A stretch of DNA of 37,608 bases from Nitrospirales bacterium (lineage in GTDB: Bacteria; Nitrospirota; Nitrospiria; Nitrospirales; UBA8639), in assembly GCA_020027535.1 (NCBI GenBank), contig JAHRAK010000032.1, positions 1 to 37,608 of the forward strand, in the 5' to 3' direction. The notes under the pieces were generated by a model. It did not search any database, was not told the origin of the DNA, and saw only the letters and a program-made list of their open reading frames with translations. Position 1 is the first letter of the stretch. Each line of letters begins with the position of its first letter. The translations under genes and the position numbers were made by a program. Shown piece by piece: positions 27,385 to 31,828 of this stretch.

Positions 27385-28731
27385 ATGACGACGCGTCTTA
27401 CGGAACTGTCCATTCTGTTTCTCAGCCTGGTCAAATGGTTTCTCCTGGCCAGTGTCGTGGGCTTGCTCGTTGGGCTCTCCTCCACCCTGTTTCTCATCCT
27501 GCTCCAGAGCAGCATCGCTCTCACGCAATCATTCCCGTACATATTTCTTCTCCTGCCGGTCAGCCTTGCGCTCTCCGGGGTCATGACGGCCAGATTCGCT
27601 TTCAGAGCTCGAGGGTACGGCACGGAACAAGTGATTCGCGCCATTCATCAAGAAGGCGGGAAAATCCACCCTCGCGTGATTCCCGTCAAATTCATCGCCA
27701 CGATCGTCACGATTGCGAGCGGAGGCTCGGCAGGCAACGTCGGGCCCTGTGCACAAATCGGCGGAGCGTTGTGCTCGGCATTCGGACAATTCATCCGCTT
27801 AGAGGACGTCGATCGAGTACGACTCGTCGTCTGCGGAATCAGCGCGGGCTTCGCCGCCGTGTTCGGCACCCCGGTCGCCGGGGCCCTGTTTGCCATTGAG
27901 GCACTCTGGATCGGGCGACTTTCCTACGGGGCACTGTTCCCTTCCCTGGTTTCGGCGTTTGTCGGGCATCAGGTTGCCGCAAACTTGGGGATTGCGTATC
28001 TCTCGCCCGTCTCACCATCGGTTCCGTCGTTGACTATTCCCTTTTTTCTCAGCGTAGGATTGGCGGGAGTCACGTTCGGCGTGGCGGCGTTCATCTTCGT
28101 GGAAATTATGGGACTCGGAAAACGGCTTGCCATTTTGACCAAAACTTCCTCCGTGCTGACCGGTGTGACCGGCGGGTTGATCCTCATCGCCGTGACCTTT
28201 CTTTTTTCAGACGACTACCTCGGCCTGGGCTGGGCGACGGTTTCTCAAGCGCTCAAGGGCGACGACCTTCCCTGGTACGCCTTTGCCGTCAAGGCCGTCA
28301 CGACCAGCGTGACGTTGAACTTCGGCGGCAGCGGGGGCATTCTTCTTCCCCTCTGTTTTTATGGGGCCGCCCTGGGATCGGCCTTGGCCAATGGGTTGGG
28401 ATTGGATCCCGCCACCTTTGCCGCATTGGGACTCGTCAGCGTGTTGGCCGGTGCCACCAATACTCCCATCGCCGCTATTGTCCTGGCCATGGAATTGTTC
28501 GGCCCCGCCATTGCGCCGTACGCGGCCACGAGTTGTGCCATGAGTTACCTGCTCACGGGCCATCGGAGCGTCATCCCCACGCAACTGCTGCACGAATCCA
28601 AGTCCCCGTCGTTTTCACTCGCGTCTCAACAGGAAATCGAGGGTGCCACGTGGAGCATCAAATCCCGACGCACGACCTTCACGAAAATTTTCTTCGGCAA
28701 ACCGTCTTCACCTGAATCTTCAGACGACTAA
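27385..28731 (+). CDS. ClC-family chloride channel/transporter lacking the gating glutamate
   Basis: A 448-residue ClC membrane protein. The selectivity segments GGSAGNVGPCAQIGG (residues about 113-127) and GTPVAGALFAIEAL (161-174) align with GGxxGREGPxVQIG and GxPLAGxxFxxEE of ClC transporters. In the first, the external gating Glu is replaced by Val119; in the second, the internal Glu pair keeps E172 but the next is Ala173. Family knowledge: these glutamates are needed for chloride/proton exchange, and their loss gives channel-like behaviour. A third conserved segment, FGGSGGILLPLC, lies near residue 313. No CBS domains follow. The start is the first ATG with no strong Shine-Dalgarno. Confidence 0.9.
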   Translation: MTTRLTELSILFLSLVKWFLLASVVGLLVGLSSTLFLILLQSSIALTQSFPYIFLLLPVSLALSGVMTARFAFRARGYGTEQVIRAIHQEGGKIHPRVIPVKFIATIVTIASGGSAGNVGPCAQIGGALCSAFGQFIRLEDVDRVRLVVCGISAGFAAVFGTPVAGALFAIEALWIGRLSYGALFPSLVSAFVGHQVAANLGIAYLSPVSPSVPSLTIPFFLSVGLAGVTFGVAAFIFVEIMGLGKRLAILTKTSSVLTGVTGGLILIAVTFLFSDDYLGLGWATVSQALKGDDLPWYAFAVKAVTTSVTLNFGGSGGILLPLCFYGAALGSALANGLGLDPATFAALGLVSVLAGATNTPIAAIVLAMELFGPAIAPYAATSCAMSYLLTGHRSVIPTQLLHESKSPSFSLASQQEIEGATWSIKSRRTTFTKIFFGKPSSPESSDD

Positions 28732-28810: not shown

Positions 28811-30670
28811 ATGCCGCCTGCCATTCACCCAGTCGATCTTCTCCAAGCCCTTCGACACCAACGTCTGACCCCGGCCATTGTCTTTTTGACTTCCCGGCGC
28901 GCTTGTGACGAGGCCATTGACAGCTTCGAACATCGCCATGTCTCGATTCCGGCCACGCGATCGGCCGCCATCACGCACGTGCTGGAAAAGATGACTGCCG
29001 AATATCCCAGTATCGCCGACCACCCCCTGATTCCCACGGTTCAACACTATGGCGTGGCGGCCCATCACGCCGGGCACCTGCCGTCCTGGAAAATTGCCGT
29101 TGAAGAACTCATGCGTCAGGGGTGTCTGGACGCGGTCTTTGCCACCACGACCTTGGCCGCCGGTGTGGATTTTCCCGCCCGCACCGTCGTCGTGACCCAA
29201 TCAAGCGTCCGCAAGGATCGCGACATCATGGAACTGACCGTCAACGAGATTCAGCAACTCGCCGGCCGCGGCGGGAGACGAGGGAAAGATTACGTGGGCT
29301 TCGTCGTGGTCACGCCGTCGCCGTATATCGACCTCGGCCCAATTGCCAACGGACTCACGAACCACCCGGAGCCTATCGACAGTCAATTTCTCCTCTCCTA
29401 TCCCATGGTCCTGAATCTCTTGAAAGCCCATACCGTCGATCATATTCAACCCATTCTGGAAAAGAGCTTTGCGCAATTTCAGATCAACCAACGAGCCGAC
29501 AGGTATGAAACCAAACTGGATGAGGTGGAAACACAACTGGAAGCCTATGGCCAGCGTGAATGCGCCGATTGGATTACGCAATGGCAATCCTTCACCCTTG
29601 CCAAAAAACGCCGCTCGCACCATCGCCTGAAAACGCGGCACGACCCGCCGGAAGTTTCGGCCCAATTGGCGTTCCTGACACCGGGTCGCGTCGTCGAACT
29701 CTCCAAGGATCACGCCATCGTCCTGCGTCAATATCGAAGCCGCGGACAAGGGTACGCCATGTTGACCGTGATTCGAAGTGGCGGACAGATTGTGGAATAT
29801 CCCGCAAACACGATCACCGCCGTGATCGATGAAATCATTGACGTCGCGGAGGCCCGAAAATTTCCATGGTGCACGCCTCATAGCCTGAAGCACGCGATCG
29901 AAACCTTGGAAAATTTTCCCACTCGATTACGACGCCTCCCCATTCGGGTGGACCAGGACGGCACCGACAGCCCGGTCCTGACCGAGATGCTCAGCCACGA
30001 GTTCCCTTGCCCAACCTGCCCGGCCCGTCCTGCTTGTCAAAAGGATCACCCGCAGGCGCTGAAGCTGCGCCAGGAAGATCATCGACTGACGAAAACCATT
30101 CATGCCTTGCGCACCGAACTCTGGCATCGCTTCCAGCAACACGTGGAGGTGTTACAAAAATTCGGCTACCTGACCCCCGCGTGCCAGCTGACCCCCGAAG
30201 GTGACTGGGCACGCCTGATTCGCATCAATCATTCGTTACTCATCACGGAATTGATACGGATGGGGGCGTTTGAAGGGATCAGCGCTTCTCTACTGGCGGG
30301 AGTGTTGGCAAGCATCGCACATGATGACGACCGGCCGGCCTCCTTTCCCGGACGTCATCCGGCGCTGATCTCTACCCTCGGACAGGTCCGGAAGGTTGCC
30401 CACTCGTTGTCCGCGTATGAAGAACCACCCCTCCTGAGGTGGGATATCGCAGCGATCGCCGACCTGTGGATCGGCCAGCCCACCCTGCCCTGGAGCGAAT
30501 TCATTCGCTCGACCACCATGGCGGAAGGGGATCTCTATCGACTCTTGGCCAGGACCTTGGAATATCTCTCGCAACTGCATGGATTACGATCGACTCATCC
30601 CGGACTGGCCGATAGCGCGAGGGACGCAATGGACCGCATGCGCCGGGACGTGCTGCAAGAATTGCCATGA
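28811..30670 (+). CDS. Ski2/HelY-like helicase, C-terminal half as a separate gene
   Basis: About 619 residues. It begins inside the second RecA-like domain, with motif IV AIVFLTSRR (22-30), then VAAHHAGHLP (82-91), motif V ATTTLAAGVDFPART (111-125) and motif VI QLAGRGGRRG (149-158). The rest is like the C-terminal region of HelY/Mtr4-type helicases: a beta/linker region, the cysteine group FPCPTCPARPAC near residue 396, and a DSHCT-like helical end. There is no Walker A or DExH here; these are in the next gene (30794-31828). It ends 120 bases before that gene. The ATG is chosen because upstream in-frame codons fall within clc. Role by family: RNA/DNA unwinding; here presumably needs the other half. 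Confidence 0.9.
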   Translation: MPPAIHPVDLLQALRHQRLTPAIVFLTSRRACDEAIDSFEHRHVSIPATRSAAITHVLEKMTAEYPSIADHPLIPTVQHYGVAAHHAGHLPSWKIAVEELMRQGCLDAVFATTTLAAGVDFPARTVVVTQSSVRKDRDIMELTVNEIQQLAGRGGRRGKDYVGFVVVTPSPYIDLGPIANGLTNHPEPIDSQFLLSYPMVLNLLKAHTVDHIQPILEKSFAQFQINQRADRYETKLDEVETQLEAYGQRECADWITQWQSFTLAKKRRSHHRLKTRHDPPEVSAQLAFLTPGRVVELSKDHAIVLRQYRSRGQGYAMLTVIRSGGQIVEYPANTITAVIDEIIDVAEARKFPWCTPHSLKHAIETLENFPTRLRRLPIRVDQDGTDSPVLTEMLSHEFPCPTCPARPACQKDHPQALKLRQEDHRLTKTIHALRTELWHRFQQHVEVLQKFGYLTPACQLTPEGDWARLIRINHSLLITELIRMGAFEGISASLLAGVLASIAHDDDRPASFPGRHPALISTLGQVRKVAHSLSAYEEPPLLRWDIAAIADLWIGQPTLPWSEFIRSTTMAEGDLYRLLARTLEYLSQLHGLRSTHPGLADSARDAMDRMRRDVLQELP

Positions 30671-30699
30671 GAGACGAAGAAGGAACAGCACACGCAGTT

Positions 30700-30744
30700 C
30701 CCCTCCTTTGCCTGCCCTGAGCGAAGTCGAAGGGTAAGGAGGGG
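30700..30744. repeat. GC-rich hairpin repeat between the two helicase halves
   Basis: CCCCTCCTT (30700-30708) pairs with AAGGAGGGG (30736-30744); inside, CCCT...AGGG extends the fold around GAGCGAAGTCGA. It is the same family as 16674-16717. It lies in the spacer between two genes whose products must act together, and may affect their relative expression. Confidence 0.7.
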
Positions 30745-30793
30745 CGAGGGGAGGAAAAGAGAAAAACGGCCTAACGGTACACCGAGCAAACAC

Positions 30794-31828
30794 ATGACCA
30801 ACGACGTATTGGCAAAACAATTGGCCGGCCTGCCCGTCAAACTGCTTCACCACCTGGCAAGGAAACGGGTGCCGCGACATTTCCGAATGGGGAAGAACCG
30901 ACTGATTCAAACACTCTTGGCCCTGTCACCCGATCAGCAGGCAGAAATCGAAACCAGCCTCGCGTCCCTCCTGCAAGAACCTGCACGCTCTCCCGACCTT
31001 CCCAAGCCACCCGATACGCCGTCCCGGCCCTCCCCGCCACGGCACAACGTACCGGCGGAACCGGCACCGGCTATCAGCACGAAGGAGCTTTTTGAAGGGA
31101 TCGGCGTTCCTCCGCAACGGCCTTTCAAGCCTGACGACTGGCAACAAGAAGCGATCAACCACTTGGCGACCAATGACGTGATCTTGAGCGTCCCCACCGG
31201 CAGCGGCAAGACCTACGTGGCGCTAGAAGCCATGCGACGGGCGATCGAAGCCGAGCAAACGATTATTTACACGTCACCCTTGAAGGCGCTCTCAAACACA
31301 AAGTTGACGGAGTTTTCGCAGACATTCGGCTCTGATCAGGTCGGCATTCTCACGGGCGATCGTCGTGACAATCCGCAGGCTCCCATTCTGATCATGACCA
31401 CGGAGATCCTGCGGAATTTACTGTACGATGCCGCAAGCGGTGAGATCGACATGCGGTTGGATACATTGGGCTTGATCATTTTGGATGAATCGCAGTTTCT
31501 GGCTGATCGGGAACGTGGAGTGGTCTGGGAAGAAACGATTATTTTCGCTCCTGCGCAATCGCGACTCCTGCTGCTGTCGGCCTCCATCGGGAACCCTGAC
31601 GAAGTCGCCGCCTGGATCAGCTCGATTCGTTCCACATCCTGTCACCTGATCCATCATCGGAACCGCTCGGTGCCGCTTCGCGCGGCCTATCTCGACCCCT
31701 CCGGGAAACTCGCACCCTTTTTCCGCACACGGGACATTGCCCACGGCAAAGGCGTCGCCCTCCACCCCGAAACCAAACGCCTGTTCGCGAACTACGAAGA
31801 CCGGACCCTCGGGCCGCGCAAACGCTGA
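30794..31828 (+). CDS. Ski2/HelY-like helicase, N-terminal half as a separate gene
   Basis: A 344-residue protein. Residues about 7-43 form a basic helical SAP/Rho-N-like segment (LARKRVPRHFRMGKNRLIQ); a proline-rich linker follows (63-93). Then comes the first RecA-like domain: motif I PTGSGKT (134-140), Ia TSPLKALSNTK (160-170), GILTGDR, motif II DESQ (231-234) and motif III SAS (262-264). The protein ends about 80 residues later, at the hinge where the second RecA domain should start. That second domain is encoded in the gene upstream. DESQ and SAS are variants of the usual DExH and SAT. Alone it could bind ATP but lacks the arginine fingers of motif VI. Confidence 0.9.
   Translation: MTNDVLAKQLAGLPVKLLHHLARKRVPRHFRMGKNRLIQTLLALSPDQQAEIETSLASLLQEPARSPDLPKPPDTPSRPSPPRHNVPAEPAPAISTKELFEGIGVPPQRPFKPDDWQQEAINHLATNDVILSVPTGSGKTYVALEAMRRAIEAEQTIIYTSPLKALSNTKLTEFSQTFGSDQVGILTGDRRDNPQAPILIMTTEILRNLLYDAASGEIDMRLDTLGLIILDESQFLADRERGVVWEETIIFAPAQSRLLLLSASIGNPDEVAAWISSIRSTSCHLIHHRNRSVPLRAAYLDPSGKLAPFFRTRDIAHGKGVALHPETKRLFANYEDRTLGPRKR

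Follow-up and report, generated by a model that had tools for sequence, protein, structure and literature searches.

How can a complete helicase be read from two neighbouring genes when the half that should come last is encoded first? The question is raised by a locus in the window, the 37,608-nucleotide stretch of Nitrospirales DNA analysed here. A preliminary description of this locus had proposed a helicase split over two same-strand neighbours, C half first and N half second, with the cut at the hinge between the two RecA domains. Our analysis supports both points. The split and its order are borne out by domain content, motifs and matches to SKI2 and Mtr4, while the place of the cut follows from alignment to fused relatives and from mapping onto Mtr4. 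The features of the locus are as follows.

28811..30670, plus strand: C-half gene (gene 1), 619 aa, with RecA2 motifs IV-VI, a ratchet-like helical part, a small beta domain, a CPTCPARPAC cysteine cluster and a DSHCT end
29045..29284, plus strand: Helicase_C match with motifs V and VI, C-half residues 79-158 (Pfam and alignment)
30188..30655, plus strand: DSHCT domain, C-half residues 460-615 (Pfam)
30671..30793, plus strand: intergenic stretch of 123 bp between the C-half and N-half genes
30794..31828, plus strand: N-half gene (gene 2), 344 aa, with RecA1 motifs I-III and a tail towards the hinge
30794..30976, plus strand: basic N-terminal four-helix module, N-half residues 1-61
31139..31600, plus strand: DEAD match with Walker A GSGKT, DESQ and SAS, N-half residues 116-269 (Pfam and invariant columns)

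The C-half gene lies within a long GTG frame opening at 28643. Its start was set to the ATG at 28811, since this is the point at which the split relatives examined begin, reading MPPxIHPVDL or something close to it. Its RecA2 domain contains motifs IV-VI with the GRxGRR signature (Pfam Helicase_C, alignment), motif V reading FATTTLAAGVDFPA and motif VI reading QQLAGRGGRRG, and its DSHCT domain (PF08148) is matched above the Pfam cut-off with an E-value of 1.8e-21. The N half is matched by the Pfam DEAD family (E 1.5e-21) and features motif I as PTGSGKT, motif II as LDESQ and motif III as SAS. The motif residues are invariant or conserved in alignments of both halves; the N halves of one family, f4, read DEAQ where the others read DESQ. 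No promoter-like or terminator-like site was found on the plus strand of the stretch between the genes. A copy of a dispersed repeat, CCTGAGCNNAGTCGAAGG, is situated there at 30711-30733; the repeat has 37 copies across the genome, of which 18 are forward and 19 reverse, and the reversed control pattern has 0. A chlorite dismutase probe of this genome gave no match.

Taken together, the two halves are complementary to a one-chain helicase. In human SKI2, the N half matches residues 269-527 and the C half residues 556-847. Structural comparison of the predicted model by VIA-align places the N half (model residues 755-995) on Mtr4 98-360 with a Z-score of 24.3 and the C half (model residues 3-619) on Mtr4 370-1039 with a Z-score of about 19, and the whole Ski2-like core fold is recovered across both halves. 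Fused relatives read VDPVVLIEAM...LPAIYF where the C half begins, and the N half stops in the linker that precedes this segment. The cut falls within the linker that joins RecA1 to RecA2, and the conserved parts are all retained. By type, the pair is a Ski2/Mtr4-type SF2 helicase; its new part is the two-protein, swapped-order architecture, fixed in a whole bacterial order. The Ski2-like trait of RecA1 and RecA2 on one polypeptide is replaced across the order by two genes, RecA2 then RecA1. Nor is this a circular permutation, with one chain and the C part first, as a stop codon closes the C half in every examined locus holding both halves. A search of the open-access literature found no published report of such a split helicase, or of the family in these bacteria.

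Predicted structures provide further insight into how the halves may pair. As a modelling device only, the read-through chain was folded by AlphaFold as one joined chain in which a residue stands in for the stop, and was scored by pLDDT and pTM. The joined chain reached a pLDDT of 85.9 and a pTM of 0.76. By our own estimate, this pTM is about what would be expected if RecA1 were confidently placed against the C half, and exceeds that expected of the C half alone; the estimate allows for about 140 linker or disordered residues, which add almost nothing to pTM. The N half folded alone gave a pTM of 0.58, with pLDDT of 46-61 in its tail and 52-56 near motif II, and in the joined chain these regions rose to about 87-92 and about 88, respectively. 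This gain would fit pairing of the halves and is only suggestive, the two runs having used different alignments. Foldseek aligns in sequence order, and the halves of a swapped chain are not scorable by it in one superposition.

The first AlphaFold alignment put the N-terminal 90 residues of the N-only rows in C-half columns, so the joined-chain model says little on the N-terminal module of the N half. In the N half folded alone, the four helices of this module (residues 1-61) are confidently predicted. The module is conserved and basic in sequence (LHRLARGRVHRHFRLGKRRLIExLL) and is found in most of the order, being absent in f4 and in the fused relative G226. A Pfam search gave no match for it. 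It leaves a SAP-like impression, and it could serve in binding to nucleic acid or to a partner.

The arrangement extends well beyond the window. The C half is present in 57 of 60 relatives and the N half in 55 of 60. Of 270 genomes searched in the class, 229 gave a match to each half, and almost all of these belong to a single order of four families. Among the match positions listed in this 270-genome search, every same-contig pair (145/145) reads C then N on one strand, with the genes no more than 270 bp apart in 142. The split order, which the preliminary description had suggested looking for in sister species, is therefore conserved there, and its conservation across the order excludes a chance origin. 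The genes overlap through their stop and start codons, or lie a few bases apart, in about a dozen genomes, which suggests translational coupling there. Neighbouring genes vary by family, including a ClC channel in the window and a GlgC-type nucleotidyltransferase gene in f3, which makes the pair itself the conserved unit. Both halves are also under strong purifying selection, with mean dN/dS values across eleven genomes of the genus of 0.106 (C half), 0.161 (N half) and 0.090 (RecA1 taken by itself).

The pair is not linked everywhere. Distances between separated halves range from 7 to 25 kb overall (25 kb in G232, 13.6 kb in G042), and the halves are far apart or unlinked in f4. Despite the distance, both are retained in G012, G232 and G042. 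Both are likewise kept in G287, G039, G045, G048 and G261, where they lie on different contigs, some near contig ends. The halves of G012 (L083 5226-10814) are separated by a 1862-aa ORF, repetitive and secreted or autotransporter-like by look, which was seen in a single species of the genus. Nor is the system universal. Two near-complete genomes of one genus, G047 and G194, keep the C half and gave no match to the N half, possibly through loss, masking or a contig end, and the near-complete G151 gave no match to either half; some of these absences may be due to contig ends or masked stretches. Sugar-nucleotide genes directly follow the C half in G194 (L194, G194:C5).

We consider it very probable that both genes encode halves of one Ski2/Mtr4-type SF2 helicase acting as a non-covalent heterodimer. 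The N-half protein would supply RecA1, with ATP binding and the DESQ box, and the C-half protein would contribute the ratchet-like domain, DSHCT and RecA2, whose motif VI provides the arginine fingers. The ATP site would be completed only when the two proteins meet, at their interface. The heterodimer would be a 3'-5' translocase, most likely on structured RNA, like its relatives Mtr4 and Ski2; by this analogy a role on RNA is likely, because these relatives work in RNA processing and decay. A working helicase assembled from two proteins, as the preliminary description had envisaged, is the most likely and best-supported reading of the split, its conservation, the selection on it and the complementarity of the halves. 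The analysis itself establishes the split, its gene order, its conservation, the purifying selection, a single-gene ancestry in normal order and, by prediction, the folds; assembly, ATPase activity, unwinding and an RNA substrate are what we infer, the last by analogy with the relatives. We also lean towards a broader view, in which the whole order uses an obligate two-subunit SF2 helicase with one RecA domain per subunit and an ATP site only at the interface. The split and the reversed order would then be kept by selection, perhaps because the N-terminal module of the RecA1 subunit regulates assembly.

It is also conceivable, if rather unlikely, that the halves act apart and form a helicase no more, the N half as a nucleotide-binding regulator and the C half as a nucleic-acid-binding factor. 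Such roles would suit separate proteins that are unlinked in a few genomes, and an N half that bears a module of its own in most of the order. However, motif V and the arginines of motif VI serve an ATP site shared with RecA1, both sides of this site are conserved, and in 142 cases the genes have stayed close together with the C half first.

The preliminary description had raised three further concerns, namely an intact second copy beside eroding halves, read-through joining and an assembly artefact, and the evidence speaks against each. Gene splits often signal gene death, and the split clade sits on a long stem branch, but order-wide retention, dN/dS of about 0.1, preserved catalytic motifs and the absence of internal stops from nearly all copies make it highly improbable that the two genes are decaying remnants of a broken helicase gene. 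A search of the window's own genome found no intact helicase copy elsewhere, the only match scoring 18 bits. We give as little credence to the idea that the halves become one permuted chain at expression, whether by read-through, frameshift or splicing. The two genes of the window are in frame with each other, and a single TGA separates them; among relatives, however, the relative frame is 0, 1 or 2 and the linker sequence is variable, so read-through cannot be the general rule, and it is impossible across halves 7-25 kb apart. One candidate C-N fusion, a single 981-aa frame in G252, was rejected because the frame crosses a run of N, a scaffold gap, at the join. An assembly or binning artefact can practically be set aside, since the source assembly of the window does comprise 140 contigs but the arrangement recurs in the single-contig genomes G009, G010, G028, G030, G054, G192, G229 and others.

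How did the split arise? The preliminary description had proposed a search for a fused homologue in normal order, and such homologues were found in G226, in public-scan loci and, as long single frames, in Cyanobacteriota. G226 belongs to another order of the same class and, apart from the split order, it alone in the class has a clear homologue; it encodes a normal-order single gene of 718 aa (L081:5939-8095). That gene is flanked by genes that look membrane pyrophosphatase-like and copper-type P-ATPase-like. A scan of public genomes found more than 550 relatives, of which the best 80 were kept. These loci come from Methylomirabilota, Rokubacteria, Cyanobacteriota/Sericytochromatia, Dormibacterota, Chloroflexota, Planctomycetota and others, and almost every one is a single ORF with the N part first; with this sampling, a second split lineage elsewhere is possible. 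The helicase was also matched in 116 of 117 Cyanobacteriota genomes, where almost every best match falls within a single frame of over 700 codons; the order of parts inside long frames was checked for the public-scan loci only, not for these 117. As the one-gene form is widespread, the split is the derived state. All three trees (N, C and joint) unite the split sequences in one clade, with 100/100 support and a long stem, and from this monophyly a single origin, no later than the ancestor of the order, is most likely.

Two models have been described for circular permutations, duplication and fission-and-fusion (PMC3320104), and the routes open to the helicase are akin to them. The split may have come from tandem duplication of the full gene followed by loss of the outer halves; no intermediate of this route was found among the genomes examined. 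Another possible route is fission with relocation, the halves being apart first and rejoined later. Adjacency of the genes in three families favours a local event, while f4, a possible sister to all other families (support 76/98, joint tree), has unlinked halves and so leaves the fission and relocation route available.

Several known systems come close to this enzyme. Mtr4/Dob1 and Ski2 (SKIV2L), both exosome-associated, give the best sequence and fold matches and share the RecA1, RecA2, ratchet-like and DSHCT parts; they form one chain in normal order, whereas the split form consists of two proteins with swapped gene order. Mtr4 and Ski2 are 3'-5' RNA unwinding enzymes of RNA processing and decay (PMC5818665). 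Single-gene bacterial Ski2-like helicases (Cyanobacteriota, Methylomirabilota, Rokubacteria, Dormibacterota and G226) are homologous over both halves, with identities of about 40-48% in RecA1 and about 22-37% in the C part. They are encoded by one ORF of roughly 650-1000 aa with the N part first, and that of G226 is without the N-terminal module of the split form. Actinobacterial HelY is likewise a bacterial Ski2-like helicase with a DSHCT-type end; it is a single chain, likened here to the split form by description. NCBIfam returned weak Hel308-type matches, far below cut-off. The plastid helicase ISE2 is related to the cyanobacterial single-gene type. ISE2 has been named in chloroplast intron splicing and rRNA processing (PMC5442247).

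A parallel for the architecture is the fission-and-fusion permutation of the transhydrogenase type, in which parts of an enzyme likewise occur as separate proteins in varied orders (PMC3320104). Transhydrogenase is a membrane enzyme, whereas the cut in the split helicase separates the two sides of one ATP site. Among the loci examined, no permuted fusion of the helicase halves was found.

Helicase cores are usually viewed as two RecA domains tethered in one chain. An order-wide enzyme with this tether cut would provide a natural test of the role of the tether in ATP hydrolysis and translocation, and its natural split point could be of use for engineered helicases. The presence of two partial helicases in the annotation of these genomes would also be explained. 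In evolutionary terms, the split pair resembles an intermediate that has persisted on the way to circular permutation, by one or other of the proposed routes (fission-and-fusion or duplication).
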